A stretch of 46,248 nt of DNA from the NCBI GenBank assembly GCA_030530875.1, contig JAUMUD010000017.1, positions 1 through 46,248 on the forward strand, read 5' to 3'. The stretch is from Corynebacterium sp. Lineage in GTDB: Bacteria > Actinomycetota > Actinomycetes > Mycobacteriales > Mycobacteriaceae. The notes below the pieces were generated by a model. The model did no database searches, was not told where the DNA came from, and was given only the letters and a program-made list of their open reading frames with translations. Positions 16,929-46,002 of this stretch are shown here, one piece after another (position 1 is the first letter of the stretch; the number at the start of each line of letters is the position of its first letter). The position numbers and the translations under genes are program-made.

Positions 16929-16955
16929 TTGCATAAACCTGATAGGGATTATGCT
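16929..16955 (+). promoter_or_regulatory. Predicted promoter of giant surface protein gene 1
   Basis: TTGCAT (16929-16934) and TATGCT (16950-16955) are separated by 15 bp. The -10 box is 54 bases before the start codon, almost the same distance as in the two paralogous genes, and the sequence downstream of it aligns with theirs. An alternative -35, TTGATT (16925-16930), would give a 19-bp spacer. Confidence 0.5.
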
Positions 16956-17009: not shown

Positions 17010-20000
17010 ATGAATTCTAAGGGGAATATTTCCCGCGGTCTTGGCCGCATGGCCATTGCCTCGGCTCTGGCTCTGAGCACGACTGCGGGTGTGGTCGTAG
17101 CGCCTCAGATGGCTCAGATTGCTCACGCTGATGATTCGACAACAAAGTCGTACTACAGCGCTGATTCGAGTGGTTTTGGTGAAAGCACCCTCTATGTCAC
17201 TAAGAACAGTGACGGTACCTATGACTTGAAGCTGATTTTCAAGAACTTGACCAAGATTCCACTGATCAATCCAAAGTTGACCATCAGTGGTATCACCTAT
17301 GATGCTTCCAAGGCTACTATTCTGATTGGTGATGCACGCTATAGCCAGTACGCGCCAGTGTATAACCCTTACAGCAACCTCTCTGACGGTCGCTACCCAT
17401 TCACCCTCGCCAGCGGTGATGGCTCGGCCATCATCAACAACCAGGTAACTACCAGTCTTGGCATTTATGCCTCGGGACAGAGTGGTACCCGTCTGATTGT
17501 GGGCGCACTTCCTGATGGTTCTACGGGCGCCAATAGCCAGTCCGCATTGCTCGCACAGGTAGAGGTCGATATTCCAAATGCCACCATCGACAGCAGTGCA
17601 AATCCGGTTTTGTCCTTCAGTGCTACTCCAGGTGTGCCACTGACAAGCTCCAAATGGAATACCACAAATGGCGATTCGCAGGGTAGCGATCTGTGGAATG
17701 CGATGCACGATGTGGAGACATATTCTACGCTTCCGGCTAAGAATATCTGGAGCCTGATGAATATCCAGTATTATTCCACCAATACTGAGTCTGTTCAGAG
17801 TAAGCTTGCGACCGTAGTTAACACCACATTAATTCCAACCGTTAACAAGGTCAGTGCAGCGGGTAACCCACGTGTCAGCTCTGTAACAACTAATAAGAGT
17901 GGCGAGAATGTCATCACTGCTCTGGTTGATAGCAGCACTGATCCATACGCTAACCTGAGTAACCTTCGTGAGGCTCAGCGCTCGTACTATCAGACCAATG
18001 CGGCGAGCGATTCGACTGCTGCTTCCACCGCCACTGCAATTAATACTGTGATGGGTGGCTCCAGCGATTCTACCGCTAATAGCACCAAGGTCAACGATGT
18101 TGATGCTAAGGCAGCTAATGCCTACATCGACACTCTGAAGTCCAACGCATCTAGCAGCGACCAGACTGCGCTTCAGACTATTGAAGATGCCCTCACAGCT
18201 AAGGTAACCGCTGGTACCGCAACTGCACTCGATGTGTATAAGGCTATCGCCAAGGCTGAAATCCAGACCAACTCTAACCTGAGCGATGCTCAGAAGAAGG
18301 CACTGGAAGACCAGATTGATGCTGCCGCTGATGGTGCAGCGGTCAAGGATATTCTTGATGCTGCTGATAAGTTGACCGATGAGGACACTAAGACTAACAC
18401 TGCTGATGACAACACCAAGGCTGTAGCTGCTGATGTGATTAGCGGTCTTGACAATCTGGTGGATGGTCAGAAGTCCTCTTATGAGGATGCTGTTAAGGCT
18501 GATGGTCTCACGAATGAGCAGGTTAAGGAGATTCTTGACCATGCTACTAACCAGGATGCTGTTCAGGGTGGCGATGACAGCGCTGCTTATACCCAGGCAA
18601 CCAATGATGCCGATAAGGCCGCTGCTAAGTCTGGTGTACAGGGTATTCTGACCACTGATGGCACCACTCCTAAGGATGGTGTCCGTGCGGACAAGGTCAC
18701 CGAGCTCGAGAATGAAGCTGCTAGTGCTGCTACCGCTCTTGATGTGGCTAAGGCTATTGCTAAGGCAGAGATTGAAGCCAATACTGATCTGACCGATGCT
18801 CAGAAGGATTCTTTGGAGCAGCAGATTGCTGATGCAAGTAAGCCTTCCGAGATTCAGAATATTTTGGATTCTGCTGATGCACTGTCTGGTAACTCTAAGG
18901 ACAGTGAGGCTGCTAGTGATGCAGTGAAGGCTGTTGCTGAGGCTCAGATTGGTGCGATGGATAATTTGACTGATGGTCAGAAGACTTCGTATAAGGCTGC
19001 TATTGCTGCTGATGGTGTGACTGTTGGTACTGTTAAGGCCATTGTTGCCGCTGCTGACAATATCGATAAGGTCATGGGTGCCGAGTCTGATGGTAAGGCA
19101 GATACCGCTACCATCCAGCAGGATAAGGACGCTGCTAAGGCTGGTGTTCTTGGTCTGCTGACTACTGATGGCACCACTCCTAAGACTGGTGTTCGCGCCG
19201 ATAAGCTCACTGAGATTGAGAACGAGGCAGCTAATGCTGCTACAGCTCTTGATGTGGCTAAGGCTATTGCTAAGGCAAAGATTGAAGCTAACACTAACCT
19301 GTCTGATGCTCAGAAGGATGCTCTTGAGAAGCAGATCGATGATGCCACCACTGCTGAGCAGGTTAAGAACATTGTTGATGCTGCTGATAAGTTGACCGAT
19401 GAGGACACTAAGACTAACACTGCTGATGACAACACCAAGGCTGTAGCTGCTGATGTGATTAGCGGTCTTGACAATCTGGTGGATGGTCAGAAGTCCTCTT
19501 ATGAGGATGCTGTTAAGGCTGATGGTCTCACGAATGAGCAGGTTAAGGAGATTCTTGACCATGCTACTAACCAGGATGCTGTTCAGGGTGGCGATGACAG
19601 CGCTGCTTATACCCAGGCAACCAATGATGCTGATAAGGACGCTGCTAAGGCCGGTGTTCAGGGTATTCTGACCACTGATGGCACCACTCCTAAGGATGGT
19701 GTTCGTGCGGACAAGGTCACTGAACTTGAGAACGAGGCTGCAAATGCTGCTACCGCTCTTGACGTCGCCAAGGCTATTGCCAAGGCTGAGATCGAGGCTA
19801 ACTCCAAGCTCAGCGATGAGCAGAAGGATGAGCTTCAGCAGCAGATCGATGATGCAACCAAGCCATCTGAGGTGAAGAGCATTGTCGATGCCGCTAGCGA
19901 CCTGACCGATGACTCCAAGAAGGATGAGACCGCATCCCAGGGCACCAAGGATGTCGCAAGCAAGTCCATCGACGATATGACTAACCTGGTCGACGGACAG

Positions 20001-21170
20001 AAGTCTTCCTACAAGGACGCCATCAGCGCAGCTGATACCACCAACGGTGATGTCGCTCAGATTCTTGAGAATGCTTCCAACATTGACAAGGTCCAGGGTG
20101 GCGATGATTCTGCTGATGCATCCAAGGCAACCAGCCAGACCGATAAGGACGCTGCTAAGGCCGGTGTTCAGGGTATTCTGACCACTGATGGCACCACACC
20201 TAAGGATGGTGTTCGTGCGGACAAGGTCACTGAGCTCGAGAACGAGGCTGCAAATGCTGCTACCGCTCTTGATGTGGCTAAGGCTATTGCCAAGGCAGAG
20301 ATTGAAGCCAATACTGATCTGACTGATGCTCAGAAGGACGCCAATCAGAAGGCCATCGATGAGGCAACCACTCCTTCTGCGGTGAAGGATATTATCGATA
20401 ACCCATCCAAGGACGCTGGCGAAAGCACTGATACCAGTGGTACCGCTGATTCCCGCACTGATTATCAGAACAAGGCAGATACCATCATCGACAATCTGCC
20501 AAATCTGACTGATGATCAGAAGAAGGACTACAAGGACCGTGTTGCAGGTACTACCAATCCTTCCGAGATTTTGACCATCGTCAAGGAAGCAGCTGTCGAA
20601 TCCATCAATAGCTCCGGCATGACCGACGATCAGAAGCAGAGCGCGACTGACAAGGTCAACGACGGTGATGACATTGACTCCGTGGATACTGTGGTGAAGC
20701 AGTATAGCAACCTCGATGCCGCTCTTGAGCGTGCAAAGCGCCTGCTCGATGAAGTAACTTCTGTCCGCAACGGTGATAACTACACCAAGGCTTCTGATGA
20801 TTTGAAGAATGCCTATGACGAGGCCATCGAGACTCTCAAGGATAACTACGACAAGGCCAAGGCAGCTGTTGATGCTGGTACTGATTCCCCTGTAACGGCT
20901 GCTGACCTTACGGAATACTCCGATAAGGTTGAGGCTGCTCGCGACGCACTGACCCCAGCTTCCAGCAATAGCGGTTCTTCGCTTTCCTCCGGTCCTGCTT
21001 GGTGGGTATGGCTCCTCGGTGTGCTTGGTCTCACCGGTGGCGTGCTTGGTTGGGGTTACGTCCACGACGCTGACTTCCGTGCAGTAGTCGACACCGCCAT
21101 TGCCAACTTCCAGCATGCAGTGGATGATGCACGTGCCAATGTTGAGCGTGCCCTGGGTATTCGCCAGTAG
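17010..21170 (+). CDS. Giant repetitive secreted/surface protein 1 (GA-like repeats, C-terminal membrane anchor)
   Basis: The product is 1386 residues. It has a Sec signal peptide (hydrophobic core around MAIASALALS, cleavage probably after IAHA at about residue 40). Residues 42-300 form a beta-rich head with no family I recognise, including NPKLTISGITYDA. Residues about 370-1140 form an acidic, helical stalk with a strict period of 170 residues; the TTDGTTPK landmark recurs every 510 bp at 18651, 19161, 19671 and 20181. Each period holds two three-helix units resembling GA modules (ATALDVAKAIAKAEIEAN and NLVDGQKSSY types). Further GA-like units (NLTDDQKKDYKDRV) and a FIVAR-like module ending AARDALTP (about 1235-1315) follow. 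The membrane segment WWVWLLGVLGLTGG (about 1331-1351) precedes a conserved 35-residue tail. There is no LPXTG. It is probably a long surface stalk; GA modules in other bacteria can bind host albumin, but binding here is unproven. Confidence 0.85.
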   Translation: MNSKGNISRGLGRMAIASALALSTTAGVVVAPQMAQIAHADDSTTKSYYSADSSGFGESTLYVTKNSDGTYDLKLIFKNLTKIPLINPKLTISGITYDASKATILIGDARYSQYAPVYNPYSNLSDGRYPFTLASGDGSAIINNQVTTSLGIYASGQSGTRLIVGALPDGSTGANSQSALLAQVEVDIPNATIDSSANPVLSFSATPGVPLTSSKWNTTNGDSQGSDLWNAMHDVETYSTLPAKNIWSLMNIQYYSTNTESVQSKLATVVNTTLIPTVNKVSAAGNPRVSSVTTNKSGENVITALVDSSTDPYANLSNLREAQRSYYQTNAASDSTAASTATAINTVMGGSSDSTANSTKVNDVDAKAANAYIDTLKSNASSSDQTALQTIEDALTAKVTAGTATALDVYKAIAKAEIQTNSNLSDAQKKALEDQIDAAADGAAVKDILDAADKLTDEDTKTNTADDNTKAVAADVISGLDNLVDGQKSSYEDAVKADGLTNEQVKEILDHATNQDAVQGGDDSAAYTQATNDADKAAAKSGVQGILTTDGTTPKDGVRADKVTELENEAASAATALDVAKAIAKAEIEANTDLTDAQKDSLEQQIADASKPSEIQNILDSADALSGNSKDSEAASDAVKAVAEAQIGAMDNLTDGQKTSYKAAIAADGVTVGTVKAIVAAADNIDKVMGAESDGKADTATIQQDKDAAKAGVLGLLTTDGTTPKTGVRADKLTEIENEAANAATALDVAKAIAKAKIEANTNLSDAQKDALEKQIDDATTAEQVKNIVDAADKLTDEDTKTNTADDNTKAVAADVISGLDNLVDGQKSSYEDAVKADGLTNEQVKEILDHATNQDAVQGGDDSAAYTQATNDADKDAAKAGVQGILTTDGTTPKDGVRADKVTELENEAANAATALDVAKAIAKAEIEANSKLSDEQKDELQQQIDDATKPSEVKSIVDAASDLTDDSKKDETASQGTKDVASKSIDDMTNLVDGQKSSYKDAISAADTTNGDVAQILENASNIDKVQGGDDSADASKATSQTDKDAAKAGVQGILTTDGTTPKDGVRADKVTELENEAANAATALDVAKAIAKAEIEANTDLTDAQKDANQKAIDEATTPSAVKDIIDNPSKDAGESTDTSGTADSRTDYQNKADTIIDNLPNLTDDQKKDYKDRVAGTTNPSEILTIVKEAAVESINSSGMTDDQKQSATDKVNDGDDIDSVDTVVKQYSNLDAALERAKRLLDEVTSVRNGDNYTKASDDLKNAYDEAIETLKDNYDKAKAAVDAGTDSPVTAADLTEYSDKVEAARDALTPASSNSGSSLSSGPAWWVWLLGVLGLTGGVLGWGYVHDADFRAVVDTAIANFQHAVDDARANVERALGIRQ
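18355..18610 (+). repeat. Exact 256-bp direct repeat, copy A
   Basis: This segment is identical by eye to 19375-19630, offset 1020 bp (two 170-residue repeat units). Recombination between the copies would remove or add 340 residues in frame. Confidence 0.9.
19375..19630 (+). repeat. Exact 256-bp direct repeat, copy B
   Basis: This is the second copy of the repeat at 18355-18610. Identity extends imperfectly downstream into the TTDGTTPKDGVRADK region, which is itself repeated again near 20140-20270. Confidence 0.9.
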
Positions 21171-21189
21171 GTTGATCCCTCCGAATTCT

Positions 21190-21213
21190 CCCTACCAGAG
21201 ACGAGATAAACTA
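21190..21213 (+). other. Shared 24-nt 3' UTR element, copy 1
   Basis: CCCTACCAGAGACGAGATAA followed by ACTA begins 20 bases after the stop codon. The same 24 bases, with one substitution, occur at the same distance after both paralogous genes (25690-25713, 30241-30264). Function is unknown; it may be an mRNA-processing or stability element, or simply part of the duplicated unit. Confidence 0.7.
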
Positions 21214-21233
21214 TCAATCCTATAATGTGTGTG

Positions 21234-21264
21234 CACCCCAGTACTTCGGTACTGGGGTGTTTTT
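21234..21264 (+). terminator. Terminator of giant gene 1
   Basis: An 11-bp perfect stem (CACCCCAGTAC / GTACTGGGGTG) is capped by the stable TTCG tetraloop (21245-21248) and followed by TTTTT. Confidence 0.93.
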
Positions 21265-21369
21265 ATGTGTATATACGAGTTTCAGAAAAGCTACCGGGGC
21301 AGTGAAAATAACCGAAATTGACGGCATACGACGACTCAAATGTATTACATAAAAAGGGGAGTAGTGCAT

Positions 21370-21411
21370 ATGTTGCCGGGCATAAAAGCTGCAGCTAGAA
21401 CCTTAAATTAA
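21370..21411 (+). CDS. Possible 13-residue leader peptide
   Basis: ATG at 21370 is preceded by a good AAGGGGAG ribosome-binding site eight bases upstream, and TAA follows after 13 codons (MLPGIKAAARTLN). A TTGACG box (21318-21323) with TGTATT 17 bp later could drive it. It lies 24 bases upstream of the -35 region of giant gene 2. It is too short to judge by composition, so this is a weak call. The remainder of 21265-21434 shows nothing else. Confidence 0.2.
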   Translation: MLPGIKAAARTLN

Positions 21412-21434
21412 GCTGTGAAAATGCAAAAGTTTGC

Positions 21435-21462
21435 TTGCGGGGGGGGGATTTGCTGCTATTCT
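21435..21462 (+). promoter_or_regulatory. Predicted promoter of giant gene 2 with a G9 tract in the spacer
   Basis: TTGCGG (21435-21440) and TATTCT (21457-21462) are separated by 16 bp. Nine consecutive G (21439-21447) overlap the end of the -35 box and fill the first part of the spacer. The -10 box is 53 bases before the start codon, the same as in gene 3. A gain of one G would give a 17-bp spacer. This is the classical geometry for promoter phase variation by slipped-strand mispairing. Confidence 0.6.
21439..21447 (+). repeat. Homopolymeric G tract (G9)
   Basis: Nine G in a row form the longest homopolymer noticed in the window. It sits in the predicted promoter spacer of giant gene 2 and is absent from the aligned promoters of genes 1 and 3. 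Confidence 0.95.
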
Positions 21463-21482
21463 TCCTGGTGTTTAAATCGCAG

Positions 21483-21505
21483 TTTCATCAAGTCTTACTG
21501 AAAGG
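21483..21505 (+). promoter_or_regulatory. Shared 5' UTR hairpin/RBS element, copy 2
   Basis: TTTCAT (21483-21488), GTCTT and CTGAAAGG align with the elements before genes 1 and 3. A short stem is possible, and GAAAGGG provides the ribosome-binding site for ATG 21516. Confidence 0.55.
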
Positions 21506-21515
21506 GCTTTGAAAG

Positions 21516-24500
21516 ATGAATAAAAAGGGTCGTATTACCCGTGGCTTTGGCCGTATGGCTGTAGCCTCCACCCTTGCTCTGAGCACCACCGCTGGTGTCA
21601 TGGTTGCACCTCAGATGGCTCAGGTCGCCCATGCCGATTCCAGTGATCTGGGCACACTTGTAAAGCGTATTGGTACTGACACCAACTACATTGATGTATA
21701 CACTCAGAATGGCACTGTTAACCTCAAGGTTTACTTCTATAACCCAAGTGGTTACACTAACAAGATGCCAATGACGGACATGAGTGTCCAGCTCGGCGGT
21801 TTCACCTACGACGCAGATAACAGTACGCTCGAGTATCAGGATCTTCGCTCTTGGAACACTCCGACCGGCGATACCAGTACCGTGATTACCGATCGCTCCA
21901 AGATGAATACGACCGGCAAATTCAGCGGAACTAATATGCCGGCAACCTTGATTGGTTCCACTAAGCAGACCTCTTGGAATGGTGACGTTAATAATTACAA
22001 TCGCGTTGTTCTTGCAGCGAATGCTGCTTGGACTGCAGTTTTCAAGGACGTGAAGCTGACAAGCGATAATACTGCACCGTATGTTTATTTCCAGGGCAAT
22101 TTCCGTGCTATTACCGATGGAATTACTCGCGACAATGGCGGTAGCTGGTTCAATGACCGTGTGAGCGCATTCTCGGCTTCTAATACTGTCGGTGGTAACA
22201 ACAATGCTCTCGCAGTTTATGGCCAAGACTTCATCGATGCATACAACTCTTGGAAGAGTGGTCATGCTTCCGGCGCCTTTGATTCTGTTATTGCCAATTA
22301 TTTGGCAGCAGTTACTGCTCGTCAGGGCACCAGTGCCCAGTCTGCTGGTGTTGATTTGAAGGGGGTAGCCAATAATGATTTGTCTAAGGCTATTACCTCT
22401 GCTGCTAATGGCGGTGCTGCAACTCAAGAAGATAAAGACACGGCAAAGACAAAGCTAGGTTTGTTGACTGATCTTGCACCTAAGCAGCTTGATACGTATA
22501 AATCCACCGTTGACAGTGCTTCGACGACTTCAGATATCAACGCTATCGTCGAAGCTGCGACTAAGCAGAATGCTGTTCAGGGTGGCGACGATAACGCAGC
22601 ATACAGTGAACAGCCTGTAGGTTACGGCCAGTCTGATGGCAAGGACTATGAGAATGCCGCTGGTGCAGCAGGTGTTGATGGCCTGCTGAAGAACGACGAC
22701 GGTACTTATAAGAACACCGTCCGTGCTACTGTGGCTACAAAGCTCCACGATGATGCCGCTAAGGCTGATACCCGTCTGGGTATTGCTAAGGCTATTGCCA
22801 AGGCACGTATCGAGGCTAACGAGAATCTGACTGATGACCAGAAGGATGCCCTCGAGCAGAAGATTGATGACGCTACTAAGCCATCGGATATCAAGACCAT
22901 CGTTGATGATGCTGCTAAGCTGACTGATCCTAAGAAGGAGAATGAAGCAGCCGATCAGTCCACCAAGGACGATGCTGCTTATGTCATTGGTACCTATAAG
23001 AACCTTGCTCCTGGTCAGAAGAATTCTTACAAGGACTCTGTCAATGCAGCTGACCTGACCAATGGCCAGGTCAAGGAAATTCTTGACGCTGCTACTAAGC
23101 AGAATGCTGTTCAGGGTGGCGACGACAACGAGGCCGTTTATACCGAGGCTGCCAAGGATTATGATAAGGCTGCGGCTGTCAAGGGCGTCGATGGTCTGCT
23201 CAAGAAGGACGATGGTTCTTATAACACGGGCGTCCGTGAGGATGTAGCTAAGAAGATCCATGATGAGGCTGAAAAGGCCGAGGATCGTCTTGATATTGCT
23301 AAGGCCATCGCCAAGGCACGTATTGAAGCTAATACCAACCTCAGCAATGATCAGAAGGACCAGCTTGAGGCTGCTATTGATGCAGCAAAGAAGCCATCCG
23401 ATATTAAGTCCATTCTTGACAACGCTGACAGCTATGCTGATGACTCGAATAAGGGTAACGTCGCAGATCAGGCATTCAAGGACTTCGCAGCTCACGTCAT
23501 TGACGGTATGGGCAACCTCGTTGATGGCCAGAAGGATGCTTATAAGAAGGCTATTAATGAAGGCAGCCTGACCGTCGGTCAGATCAAGGAAATTCTTGGT
23601 ACTGCCGGCAATATCGATAAGGTCCAGGGCGCAGTTGCTGGTGGCAAGGCAAATGAGCCTACTACTCAGACGGACAAGGATGCTGCGGTTTCCGGCGTTG
23701 ATGGTCTGTTGAAGGGTAAGGACGGTTCTTATAACCCAGGCGTCCGACCAGAGAAGGCAGCCGCTATTGCCAAGGAAGCTAGCGAGGCAGCAACCGCTCT
23801 TGATGTTGCTAAGGCCATCGCCAAGGCAAGGATTGAGGCTAATTCTAAGCTGAGCAATGCCCAGAAGGATGCTCTTGAGGATGCCATCGACAATGCAAAG
23901 ACCCCTGAAGAGGTAAAGGCTATTGTCGACTCCGCCGACAAGATCACCAAGGACGATGACAAGACTAAGCCAGCTGAGCAGGGCACCAAGGATGCCATTG
24001 CCAAGGTTATTGAGGGCATGGAAAACCTCGCCCCAGGTCAGAAGAAGTCCTATGAGGATGCTGTTAAGGCTGACGGTGTAACCAACGAAAAGGCCGCCGA
24101 AATTCTTGACCACGCCTCCAACATCGACCAGGTCCAGGGCGGCAATGACAAGGCTGATGCTTCCAAGGAAACCAACAAGGAAGACAAGGACGCAGCTAAG
24201 GCCGGCGCCGAGGGCATTCTGAAGAATGATGATGGCACCTATAAGCCAACCGTCCGTCCAGAGGTTGCTGACAAGATCATCGAGGATGCATCTGAGGCTC
24301 CTACCGCTCTTGACGTTGCTAAGGCAATTGCCAAGGCAAATGTTGAGGCTAATCCAAATCTGAGCAATGATCAGAAGGATGCTATCGAGAAGGCCATCGA
24401 CGGTGCTACCAAGCCTTCCGAGGTCAAGGGTCTTGAGGATTCTGCTGACAAGATCACCAATGATAAGACCAAGACTGATCCAGCTGACCAGACCACCAAG

Positions 24501-25670
24501 GATGCCATCAGCAAGGCAATTGATGGCTTGACCCACCTGGTAGACGGCCAGAAGGACTCCTATAAGGAGGCCATTTCCAAGGATGGCGTAACCAACGAGA
24601 AGCTTGGCGAGATTCTTGACCACGCTGCGAACATCGACCGTGTCCAGGGTGGCGATGACAACGCTGATGCTTCCAAGGCAACCAACCAGGAAGACAAGGA
24701 CGCTGCTGTTAAGGGCGTTGAGGGTCTGCTGAAGAATGCCGATGGTTCCTACAAGGACGGTGTTCGCGAGGATAAGGCCAAGGAGATCATCGAGCAGGCT
24801 AAGAATGCTGGTACTGCTCTTGATGTTGCTAAGGCCATTGCCAAGGCAAAGATTGAGTCTGACTCGAACCTGAGCGATACTGATAAGGACGCTAACGAGA
24901 AGAAGATCGACGACGCCACCAAGCCTTCCGAGGTTGCTGAGATCACCAATAACCCAACTAAGGGCAATGGTGAGAGCACTAATCCTTCTGATACTCGTAC
25001 CGATGATCAGAAGAAGGCAGGTACCATCATCGATGCTCTTCCAAACCTGACTGATCAGCAGAAGAAGGACTTTAAGGACCGTGTGAATAACACCACCGAT
25101 CCTTCCCAGATTCTGAGCATCGTGAAGGATGCTGCTGTTGCCTCCATCAATGGCTCCGGTATGACCGATGACCAGAAGAAGGATGCTACTGCCAAGGTCA
25201 ACAATGGCGACAACATGGACGATGTCCAGAATGTGGTCAGCCAGTATACCGACCTTGATGCAGCTATCGCTCGTGCTAATAAGCTGCTTGATGAGGCTGC
25301 TACTGTCCGCAGCGGTGATAACTACACCAAGGCAAGTGACTCCCTGAAGAAGGCTTATGATGATGCCATCTCTGCACTTCAGGAGAAGTACGACAGCGCA
25401 GTGAAGAACGGCAAGGACGGCGACGTCAGTGCCGCTGACCTTACCGCATACTCTGACAAGGTTGAGGCTGCACGTGATGCGTTGACCCCAGCTGCTGGTA
25501 ATGGTGGTTCTTCGCTGTCTTCCGGTCCTGCTTTGTGGGTCTGGATTTTGGGTCTGCTTGGTCTTGTTGGTGGTGTGCTCGGTTGGGGCTATGTCCACGA
25601 CGCTGACTTCCGTGCAGTTGTCGATGGTGCTATCGCCAATGTTCAGCGCGCACTGGGTATTATCCGCTAG
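21516..25670 (+). CDS. Giant repetitive secreted/surface protein 2
   Basis: The product is 1384 residues with a signal peptide very close to those of proteins 1 and 3 (cleavage after VAHA, about residue 41). The head (about 42-280) keeps GGFTYDADNSTLEY but is otherwise clearly different from the heads of 1 and 3. The stalk (about 290-1150) has five landmark repeats (VDGLLK/AEGILK type) at 22671, 23184, 23694, 24204 and 24714, spaced 513, 510, 510 and 510 bp. Each unit has a DVAKAIAKAxIEAN helix pair followed by a NLxxGQKxSYKxA unit. GA-like NLTDQQKKDFKDRV and the FIVAR-like C-terminal module follow. The anchor is ALWVWILGLLGLVGGVLGWG (about 1339-1359) plus the tail VHDADFRAVVDGAIANV. No sorting motif is present. 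Its predicted promoter contains the G9 tract, so expression may switch. Confidence 0.85.
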   Translation: MNKKGRITRGFGRMAVASTLALSTTAGVMVAPQMAQVAHADSSDLGTLVKRIGTDTNYIDVYTQNGTVNLKVYFYNPSGYTNKMPMTDMSVQLGGFTYDADNSTLEYQDLRSWNTPTGDTSTVITDRSKMNTTGKFSGTNMPATLIGSTKQTSWNGDVNNYNRVVLAANAAWTAVFKDVKLTSDNTAPYVYFQGNFRAITDGITRDNGGSWFNDRVSAFSASNTVGGNNNALAVYGQDFIDAYNSWKSGHASGAFDSVIANYLAAVTARQGTSAQSAGVDLKGVANNDLSKAITSAANGGAATQEDKDTAKTKLGLLTDLAPKQLDTYKSTVDSASTTSDINAIVEAATKQNAVQGGDDNAAYSEQPVGYGQSDGKDYENAAGAAGVDGLLKNDDGTYKNTVRATVATKLHDDAAKADTRLGIAKAIAKARIEANENLTDDQKDALEQKIDDATKPSDIKTIVDDAAKLTDPKKENEAADQSTKDDAAYVIGTYKNLAPGQKNSYKDSVNAADLTNGQVKEILDAATKQNAVQGGDDNEAVYTEAAKDYDKAAAVKGVDGLLKKDDGSYNTGVREDVAKKIHDEAEKAEDRLDIAKAIAKARIEANTNLSNDQKDQLEAAIDAAKKPSDIKSILDNADSYADDSNKGNVADQAFKDFAAHVIDGMGNLVDGQKDAYKKAINEGSLTVGQIKEILGTAGNIDKVQGAVAGGKANEPTTQTDKDAAVSGVDGLLKGKDGSYNPGVRPEKAAAIAKEASEAATALDVAKAIAKARIEANSKLSNAQKDALEDAIDNAKTPEEVKAIVDSADKITKDDDKTKPAEQGTKDAIAKVIEGMENLAPGQKKSYEDAVKADGVTNEKAAEILDHASNIDQVQGGNDKADASKETNKEDKDAAKAGAEGILKNDDGTYKPTVRPEVADKIIEDASEAPTALDVAKAIAKANVEANPNLSNDQKDAIEKAIDGATKPSEVKGLEDSADKITNDKTKTDPADQTTKDAISKAIDGLTHLVDGQKDSYKEAISKDGVTNEKLGEILDHAANIDRVQGGDDNADASKATNQEDKDAAVKGVEGLLKNADGSYKDGVREDKAKEIIEQAKNAGTALDVAKAIAKAKIESDSNLSDTDKDANEKKIDDATKPSEVAEITNNPTKGNGESTNPSDTRTDDQKKAGTIIDALPNLTDQQKKDFKDRVNNTTDPSQILSIVKDAAVASINGSGMTDDQKKDATAKVNNGDNMDDVQNVVSQYTDLDAAIARANKLLDEAATVRSGDNYTKASDSLKKAYDDAISALQEKYDSAVKNGKDGDVSAADLTAYSDKVEAARDALTPAAGNGGSSLSSGPALWVWILGLLGLVGGVLGWGYVHDADFRAVVDGAIANVQRALGIIR

Positions 25671-25689
25671 ATGATTCCCTCTTTAGGCT

Positions 25690-25713
25690 CCCTACCTGAG
25701 ACGAGATAAACTA
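25690..25713 (+). other. Shared 24-nt 3' UTR element, copy 2
   Basis: CCCTACCTGAGACGAGATAA plus ACTA starts 20 bases after the stop codon, identical to the copy after gene 3 and one base different from that after gene 1. Confidence 0.7.
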
Positions 25714-25735
25714 CCAAATCCTAATAATGTGTTTG

Positions 25736-25767
25736 AACCCCGGTACTTCGGTATCGGGGTTCTTTTT
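25736..25767 (+). terminator. Terminator of giant gene 2
   Basis: The stem AACCCCGGTAC / GTATCGGGGTT (one G-T wobble) with a TTCG tetraloop (25747-25750) is followed by CTTTTT. The stretch from here to 25939 shows no supported gene. Confidence 0.88.
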
Positions 25768-25939
25768 GCGCCTGCATGCATAATATGCCTTCATGGCATT
25801 CATCGAAGAACTTGCCCGAATTTCCACGACATTACATGACCTTCAAATCACGATCCTTGCCTATGTGGGTGCATAAGATTGGTGTCTCTATTTTTACTGG
25901 TCAAGCAAGTTAATTTGTGCTGATCGCAATTTCGGTTGC

Positions 25940-25968
25940 TTGCAAGGCTTCAGATGCGTTGCTATGCT
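25940..25968 (+). promoter_or_regulatory. Predicted promoter of giant gene 3
   Basis: TTGCAA (25940-25945) and TATGCT (25963-25968) are separated by the optimal 17 bp, and the -10 box is 53 bases before the start codon. It aligns with the promoters of genes 1 and 2, whose spacers are 15 and 16 bp. Confidence 0.55.
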
Positions 25969-25988
25969 ACCTGGTTGTCAAATTGGAA

Positions 25989-44900: not shown

Positions 44901-46002
44901 CTTGTCTGAATTTGCCGTCTTGCTTGATGGCGCAAACTCGGACTATGGCTCCGTCCAAGCATATAACCGATACGGCCAAGTCCACTTCACCCGTACACTG
45001 CTGAATAACTACGGCACCTACACGCACGAATATACCCACGCAACAGATGAAGATGCGCCACTATTTGGCAAAGGCACCGACTTCCGTCAGGTGGGCGGCG
45101 CAAAATTGGGCAGCGAAACAGTAACCCAAAATGTCATGGAGCAAGAATTCAACTACTCCAGTTTCGCACCCACCTTCAGCAACGTAACAGTCGGCAATGA
45201 TGCAATGAGTGCCTATACTCCGGACCGTCTTAGCAGCGACGCTGACTATAAGAGCTACTACCGTGGACTCTTCGATACATTGAACTTGCTCAACTATGTT
45301 CAGGGCGAAGCCTTCTTGAAGCTGACTTGGGAGGAGCAACAGAAGCTTGGTTCTCAGGCTGCTGAGACAAACAAAGCCGGGGTAATCGCCCCCGCCAATT
45401 CGACTGATCCATTGGCTCGAATCAGCACTAAGTGGACTCACCTCGATGTGACATATGCAAATTCCACAGAGCAACTAAAGCTCACTTCTCTTGAAGACCT
45501 GTGGGATAACAAGATCGTGGTTAACCCTAATTTCACGAAGACTGCAACAACTTCCTTCTCTGGTAGTAGCTATTCTTCCGTTCCTGGTGTAGCAGCAACC
45601 TGGTACTTGCCTCATAATGACTACGGTATTTCGGATGGTGTCACCAACAAGTACTATGCCTTCATGATGGCTGGCGAAGCCGGATGGCAAGGAACCAAGA
45701 ATGTTCTCACCGGTAAGATGACTGACCTCGCGATGCTCCGTGCTTGTACCCAGAATGACACCATTGATTGGAAGAGCTACATTGTCGATGGCTACAAGAA
45801 TGCAGGTGCGAAGGCACGCGCTGAAGGCAAGGACGTTGATGGCATGATTGACGCTATGTATAAAGCCATGGTGGCTGATGCCAAGCAAGCCAAGCTGTAT
45901 AGCGAGAACAACGCCAAGGAGTGGAACTACACCAAGACCACAAGACAGCGTCTGGACTTCTTCAACCAGATAAAGCGAGAAACCAACGACTTCCGCAACT
46001 AA
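41980..46002 (+). CDS. Surface lipoprotein zinc metalloprotease, M26 (IgA1 protease/ZmpB)-like
   Basis: The product is 1340 residues. The lipoprotein signal (MRSSMKHIAIYAV, lipobox LSAC) places the anchored Cys at residue 24. A linker and a beta-domain (about 65-165, ISLSFTPDSD through DCGYSLFF) follow, then a Thr/Ser/Pro/Glu-rich stalk of about 150 residues. The catalytic part contains YTHEYTHATDED, a zinc motif HExxH (H1016, E1017, H1020). The C-terminal end RLDFFNQIKRETNDFRN resembles the closing segment of streptococcal ZmpB-type M26 proteases, as do other late segments (DLAMLRACTQND). A glutamate in KLGSETV could be the third ligand. It should cleave host or surface proteins outside the cell; IgA1 as target is unproven. 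Starts at 41971 and 41992 are also in frame; 41980 fits the promoter. A strong terminator follows. Confidence 0.8.
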   Translation: MRSSMKHIAIYAVLALGIPSLSACAGSSNFLGSSLSSGHGSGANQAQAQDENTNPSDQSEEPSEDKKQFSDYISLSFTPDSDVTASDSYDTGDILTLYLRVKDGADLTPTSVQFNGESYPLTAVGAGNYTFEFPVDKAQNPEVALTQVRFADGTSWDCGYSLFFTKDLHATSTPATTEESTTTSNDTEATEELTQPLDNRSTEATTSKEEQPVAPTTTTSPTPTKATGNEATPEATDTSATTAKDGGSEAGDKDSTTTTAKEEPSSEKSTEVAPVVSPTTSAEEPSSEPEDTSQPESPEVQPTEETSTTTPTTSPTTSETAPVELNVTSQWVDAQNVEFTAVGEGQKLVVSDDDGNELGSVDATPTGAKLKLNAAGSTDLHWTAGDKSGTVDAAARISFGHVTGVTVYRKGSKGLDKLPPNVVKPNDIMLVKFSNGMNKFLRVDSTNWKTTNGVTVNSVTPKLDQDTKYVRSYRDDLDANFDGLTKPEGAEDKLYIAMSNTDTFRQVGDDTKTDTLSDNLYLLAPYMDPAQRVRVAHFLPQDSVLRTHAISQIVPRNADGDAVGYTSKNNADQVTSVEVAFTDATPIVIPLGAPTIHAGVVSYRSTVDSDKEAAAVWYQPATAAFNDESAYLNDIYTKAAAATQMNVQKEEAKYQAPLNRNWAEYKGSRLKTDIATALAADPYWNSVGDDADFQTLATQFATPLIKTDADAKRLALLLNWNDRGFRYKFNSMRASTLLLGYRGPDARTHLGYGSIRALSLESRFASWNGLLLNGGRFANAWYTDAFPNTTNFAQKTELWIQRFTTHGTDYSAWAKEAFPGTVFEADHTSYKGNDFNFWKNLTTFNYSGNKANLGGTLNSVLSVPEHGTPQESGYSAGAKASANSLEPQMYIVNLPGTLAFGNAGRYTPQNFTTLGNKFAADATFYVEHIDNVVDGYMARLTSGTYGSYKHSGTYIVWDTKGAKTAGYADTDNPYLSEFAVLLDGANSDYGSVQAYNRYGQVHFTRTLLNNYGTYTHEYTHATDEDAPLFGKGTDFRQVGGAKLGSETVTQNVMEQEFNYSSFAPTFSNVTVGNDAMSAYTPDRLSSDADYKSYYRGLFDTLNLLNYVQGEAFLKLTWEEQQKLGSQAAETNKAGVIAPANSTDPLARISTKWTHLDVTYANSTEQLKLTSLEDLWDNKIVVNPNFTKTATTSFSGSSYSSVPGVAATWYLPHNDYGISDGVTNKYYAFMMAGEAGWQGTKNVLTGKMTDLAMLRACTQNDTIDWKSYIVDGYKNAGAKARAEGKDVDGMIDAMYKAMVADAKQAKLYSENNAKEWNYTKTTRQRLDFFNQIKRETNDFRN

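Follow-up and report, generated by a model that had tools for sequence, protein, structure and literature searches.

The window, the whole 46,248-nucleotide stretch of the Corynebacterium sp. contig that was analysed, carries three giant genes in tandem on the forward strand, with efp and nusB on their 5' side and a pyrimidine gene cluster on their 3' side. Reading frames and a PF01468 search give gene 1 (17010-21170) 1386 amino acids and nine GA-module stretches, gene 2 (21516-25670) 1384 amino acids and eight such stretches, and gene 3 (26022-30221) 1399 amino acids and, again, eight. The three genes are tandem paralogs that are predicted to encode albumin-binding-type GA-module proteins; the GA module of gene 2 scores 183.7 bits against a cut-off of 24, with several modules above the curated cut-off, while a phmmer search with the whole gene 2 protein matched no solved structure at an E-value of 0.001. 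Inspection by eye finds an N-terminal signal sequence in each of the three proteins, and a C-terminal membrane segment followed by a short tail in that of gene 2. Signal sequence, membrane segment and GA modules together predict that the gene 2 product is a surface protein. An intrinsic terminator of gene 1 (21233-21260, forward strand; terminator scan) separates it from gene 2, and a similar hairpin is visible by eye 3' of gene 2, so that each gene is likely to form its own transcription unit.

All three proteins share the C-terminal segment LSSGPA(L/W)WVW...WGYVHDADFRAVVD. A model of the C-terminal end finds 15 matching places in the own genome, 13 in G058 and four in G242, with a single weak match in each of three further genomes, for a total of six of the 242 genomes of the genus. 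The numerous paralogous sites of the own genome that share this C-terminal anchor lie in the window (17010-30221) and on contigs C61, C26, C38, C24, C54, C55 and C57; several of these matches are at or near contig ends, and the repeats have therefore probably broken the assembly. Genes 2 and 3 have an identical C-terminal end, which suggests recombination between copies. Further along the window (41971-46002) is a lipoprotein-like protein of 1343 amino acids with a HEYTHA motif, by eye a possible metallopeptidase, for which we found no Pfam or NCBIfam match at an E-value of 0.01.

A first-pass annotation of this DNA had placed nine Gs between TTGC and TATTCT, 53 bp 5' of gene 2, and the window sequence bears this out. 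The full reading at 21435-21462 of the forward strand is TTGC-GGGGGGGGG-ATTTGCTGC-TATTCT, made up of TTGC (21435-21438), the G9 homopolymer (21439-21447), the stretch between run and -10 (21448-21456), and the -10 element TATTCT (21457-21462), whose aligned counterpart in genes 1 and 3 is TATGCT. The start codon (ATG) of gene 2 is at 21516, 53 bp from the -10, and is preceded by a likely ribosome-binding site, GAAAGGG (21500-21506), of which GAAAGG is common to genes 1-3. The likely -35 is TTGCGG (21435-21440), a weak element at the place where gene 3 has an aligned TTGCAA; it ends in the first two Gs of the tract, and the remaining seven of the nine Gs fall in a 16-bp promoter spacer (21441-21456; window sequence and promoter scan). 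The promoter scan also recognizes an extended -10, TGC (21454-21456), directly 5' of TATTCT. An alternative -35, TTGCTT (21431-21436), has a spacer of 20 bp and a score equal to that of TTGCGG. A strict consensus promoter scan found nothing at the tract (0, compared with 0.9 in shuffles). The G-run most likely sits inside the likeliest sigma-A promoter predicted for gene 2.

Comparison with the flanking paralogs sets the tract apart. The aligned promoters of gene 1 (TTGCAT-15-TATGCT, or TTGATT-19; 16929-16955) and gene 3 (TTGCAA-17-TATGCT; 25940-25968), found by alignment and promoter scan on the forward strand, have ordinary sequence without a run, as had been claimed; across the three genes the -10 and leader are conserved and the spacer is not. 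The near-constant gap between -10 and ATG in the earlier account also holds, at 54 bp in gene 1 and 53 bp in genes 2 and 3. The spacers of 15, 16 and 17 bp assigned to genes 1, 2 and 3 stand with the TTGC adjoining the tract as the -35, but become 19, 20 and 21 bp with the overlapping TTGATT/TTGCTT 4 bp upstream; the values hinge on this choice, and so does the optimal length, since in gene 2 the two candidates score equally. Sigma-A promoters of C. diphtheriae are described as having a -10 of TAgaaT and a weak ttgcaa -35 at 16-20 bp, with transcription starting 6-9 bp 3' of the -10 (PMC5784534), and TTGCAA of gene 3 matches that -35 motif exactly. For C. glutamicum the -35 motif is given as ttgnca, in a survey that allowed spacers of 16-19 bp and found extended -10s to be numerous and -35s weak (PMC3890552).

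To place these values in the family, we scanned 13 of 14 family promoters, omitting one with an unclear start codon; the scan gave no spacer bonus, allowed spacers of 13-22 bp, and took a -35 beginning TT and a -10 of the form TA...T. A spacer of 17 bp alone scored best in six of the 13 (gene 3, C61, C38 and three G058 promoters) and shared the best score in three more; in the remainder the best value was 15, 16 (tied with 20) or 19 bp, or no value stood out, so that best-scoring spacers range from 15 to 19 bp. The distance from -10 to start ran from 8 to 66 bp across the 13, and the layout of genes 1-3 is thus not common to all. None of the other 13 family promoters examined contains a G/C run longer than five. 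The predicted spacer of gene 2 would be 15 bp at G8, 16 at G9 and 17 at G10. Since 17 bp is the commonest clear spacer in the family, G10 would match it, and to this extent the proposal that one added G would yield an optimal 17-bp spacer is supported; with TTGCTT as the -35 (spacer 20), however, the direction of the effect would be reversed.

The G9 tract is the only G/C run of at least six in the window and the only one of at least nine, on both strands, in the assembly of 2,187,412 bases (67 contigs, 93.9% complete), which contains three G/C runs of at least eight, G9 included, and four A or T runs of at least nine. A dinucleotide shuffle of the window predicts about ten G7 matches where three are found, all within the G9 tract; with fewer matches than the shuffle expects, the run is not surprising by this model. 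Over 99,480 bases, comprising the window and seven stretches of the own genome that were not fetched for a tract, G/C runs of 4, 5, 6, 7, 8 and 9 number 329, 41, 1, 0, 0 and 1. Three genomes simulated from an order-4 Markov model of these bases give expectations of 2.0 runs of at least eight and 0.33 of at least nine per genome, where 3 and 1 are observed. One G9 in the genome is unusual and by itself not significant; the notable point is accordingly where it lies. No second copy of the tract locus was found in the genomes searched (one genome per species), nor was there a copy in viral contigs.

One of the G8 tracts of the own genome was considered as a promoter switch and rejected, as it lies inside a glycosyltransferase-like reading frame (contig C18, L089, 2127-3299); the other looks intergenic by eye. 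In G058, the nearest relative with the GA-giant family, we found no orthologous G-tract, and two stretches tried as the syntenic locus were not syntenic. The only G run of at least eight in that genome is a G14 close to where a glycosyltransferase-like gene ends (contig C34, L047, 1428-2618). Both glycosyltransferase-like genes lie near an ATPase of a polysaccharide-export-type ABC transporter (gene and ATPase named by eye), and the tract in either could be a frameshift switch.

Across the genus, G9 tracts are present in 224 of 242 genomes. An enrichment of such tracts 4-11 nt before TANNNT was rejected, with 68 cases (a count that includes two rows each for three tracts) against 66 in the backward control over the 242 genomes, and the counts reveal no general association between G9 tracts and promoters. 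Among the first-listed G9 tracts of 30 genomes, 18 were intergenic by a crude reading-frame rule (nine of them 200 bp or less from the start of a reading frame), and no clear promoter class emerged. The narrower TTGC-G8 pattern gave six hits and no control hits; it was framed after four of the six were known, and serves as an illustration and not as a test. Of the two hits not known beforehand, that in G272 falls within longer reading frames and has no start less than 300 bp away; that in G028 is ambiguous, 63 bp short of a 185-amino-acid frame whose beginning is hydrophobic.

Elsewhere in Corynebacterium, stretches that are otherwise nearly the same carry comparable G-tracts of unequal length 5' of genes for surface or secreted proteins. 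One such run, at about position 1500 of the stretches concerned, lies upstream of a SpaA-type pilin gene and is G12 in G050 (L137) and G10 in G202 (L138); an alignment of the two 3-kb stretches (3019 columns) shows 29 mismatches, of which one is no more than 300 bp from the tract, and a 14-bp gap elsewhere. The product has SpaA and GramPos_pilinD1 domains and 466 amino acids within the stretch. Matches to this promoter region at an E-value of 0.001 occur in four of the 242 genomes, the other two being G217 (L143) and G022 (L144), both of which have G10 before the pilin gene, near position 1500, despite 17 near-by mismatches; this is a result against fast change. The pilin tract resembles that of gene 2 as a run of G10-G12 upstream of a surface-protein gene whose length differs between two near-identical stretches. 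It differs in that the start codon is about 110 nt downstream, the -35 and -10 are less clear, and the protein family is unrelated.

A second set of tracts lies closer to the layout of gene 2. On the minus strand of contig C40 of G197 (L150), two tandem genes for secreted proline-rich proteins are preceded by TTGC-G12/G11-CTTTTGTC-TATGCT, with 8 nt between tract and TATGCT and spacers of 18 (G12) and 17 bp (G11). The promoter and signal-peptide stretch of this pair is near identical, and the copies align poorly beyond the promoter. In G055, TTGC-G9-TTCTAAGT-TAACCT, also with an 8-nt gap and with a spacer of 15 bp, precedes a secreted protein of 140 amino acids. Secretion was judged by eye from the N-terminus in both genomes, and the proteins scanned against Pfam matched no family. 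We also note CTGGC-G10-ATCGCTGC-TAGCCT in G111 (L025/L161), which resembles the tract and flank in the window; 148 bp beyond this tract begins the next long frame, whose product looks membrane-anchored by eye.

The repair genes of the host bear on whether such runs would be stable. A MutS_V search of the own genome (93.9% complete) found no match, the same search being positive in 11 of 14 control genomes, and NucS_C has one match (E-value 3.7e-47). A review that draws on M. smegmatis and C. glutamicum describes short indels as escaping NucS, and adds that DnaE proofreading may suppress most indels (PMC8228993). The lack of a MutS match, together with a NucS blind to indels, makes slippage plausible; given DnaE proofreading, the absence of MutS alone is no proof of a high slippage rate.

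Weighing these observations, we favor, with somewhat better than even confidence, the interpretation that G9 is a slippage-prone promoter spacer that tunes gene 2 expression. As a simple sequence repeat in the predicted sigma-A promoter of that gene, the run would gain or lose Gs by replication slippage, which a cell with NucS and without MutS should leave uncorrected. Each gain or loss would alter the -35 to -10 distance, and cells of one population would come to differ in how much they make of a single GA-module surface protein; genes 1 and 3, each under its own promoter, would stay fixed. We infer that the promoter of gene 2 is used, that the tract varies and that expression follows its length, probably in steps and not on/off. 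The extended -10 and the 16-bp spacer suggest that the G9 form is already active, and the extended -10 may blunt the effect of tract length.

The most serious competitor, to which we give a clearly smaller share of belief, treats the run as neutral filler that arose by chance expansion and wobbles without phenotype, the extended -10 making spacer sequence and length nearly irrelevant. The TGC-TATTCT arrangement fits such filler, as do the many extended -10s and weak -35s of C. glutamicum (PMC3890552), the variation of the best family spacers from 15 to 19 bp, and the genus-wide result, with no enrichment and one G9 per genome not significant under the order-4 model. Against it, the sole G9 of the assembly falls in the promoter spacer of a surface gene, for which the chance of a random place is about 1% on a rough reckoning (approximately 1190 promoters, the C. 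diphtheriae count of PMC5784534, x 17 bp / 2.19 Mb), and the same layout recurs before other secreted-protein genes. It is far from probable that the tract acts elsewhere, either in a 5' leader transcribed from an upstream start site or as a regulator-binding feature. The strict consensus scan, which detected no promoter here, would agree with this, but genes 1 and 3 share the conserved -10 region and leader and not the tract, and the near-constant distance to the ATG fits TATTCT as the -10. That the run length is an assembly artefact, the true run not being nine, we regard as barely credible: the assembly is a draft, in 67 contigs, yet the flanks align with the paralogs and the spacer lengths agree to within 1-2 bp.

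A true on/off phase switch of the porA kind, with G9 as one phase, G10 as the other and a large difference in expression, also seems improbable to us. In its favor, G10 would bring the spacer to 17 bp, the commonest in the family, and the -35 TTGCGG is weak, so that spacing may matter. However, 16 bp is within the ranges in use in C. diphtheriae (16-20; PMC5784534) and allowed for C. glutamicum (16-19; PMC3890552), an extended -10 is present, and promoter repeats of Neisseria are described as usually causing no complete loss of expression (PMC10745880). With 16 bp inside these ranges and an extended -10 making the promoter less reliant on its -35, we consider it likelier that expression changes by degrees than that it switches on and off. 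The earlier suggestion that gene 2 may flip its expression therefore survives in part: a run in the likeliest promoter, a G10 form with the family spacer, a genome with NucS and no MutS found, and the unequal tract lengths before other surface- or secreted-protein genes of the genus all speak for variable expression, but the change is likelier to be graded than a flip.

If slippage does tune gene 2, this would be, within the reach of the open-access literature, the first Corynebacterium surface gene described as phase-variable through its promoter spacer, and it would tie surface variation in the genus to a repair system blind to indels. The first-pass annotation knew of no well-described corynebacterial case, and none is apparent from titles and the beginnings of abstracts in the open-access literature, in which we likewise found no work on a GA module together with a Corynebacterium surface protein. 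A broader proposal, which we advance tentatively and hold to be doubtful, is that corynebacteria in general diversify their surface by slippery poly-G promoter spacers (those of GA giants, SpaA pilins and secreted proline-rich proteins), that repair by NucS only leaves the tracts free to change, and that paralogs are switched singly. The pilin pair, G12 and G10 in near-identical stretches, makes the idea testable with existing sequence data.

Two systems described elsewhere offer a comparison. In Cutibacterium (Propionibacterium) acnes, 54 polymorphic tracts, 96% of them G or C, are reported from 90 genomes; tract lengths mostly follow clades, from which slow accumulation was concluded, and in HPT_37, a C-run between the -10 and -35 of PPA1943, 5 and 7 Cs are associated with a 2-fold difference in expression (PMC4746626). 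Like HPT_37, the tract of gene 2 is an actinobacterial G/C run in a promoter spacer; unlike it, HPT_37 is shorter and its gene encodes a methylase and not a surface protein. The porA repeat of Neisseria meningitidis is said to be a poly-G in the promoter spacer. Promoter repeats that alter the spacing of promoter elements are an established source of phase variation in Neisseria, usually by degree and not all-or-none, with porA phase-variable (PMC10745880). The host of gene 2 differs in being an actinobacterium without a MutS match, and its promoter in having an extended -10. A porA-type contingency locus has a homopolymer of about eight or more upstream of its gene, as G9 is upstream of gene 2; both are mononucleotide runs between the -35 and -10, here predicted, of a surface-protein gene, with a length that would set promoter strength stepwise. 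The G9 locus would thus work in the manner of porA, and is a candidate member of that class.
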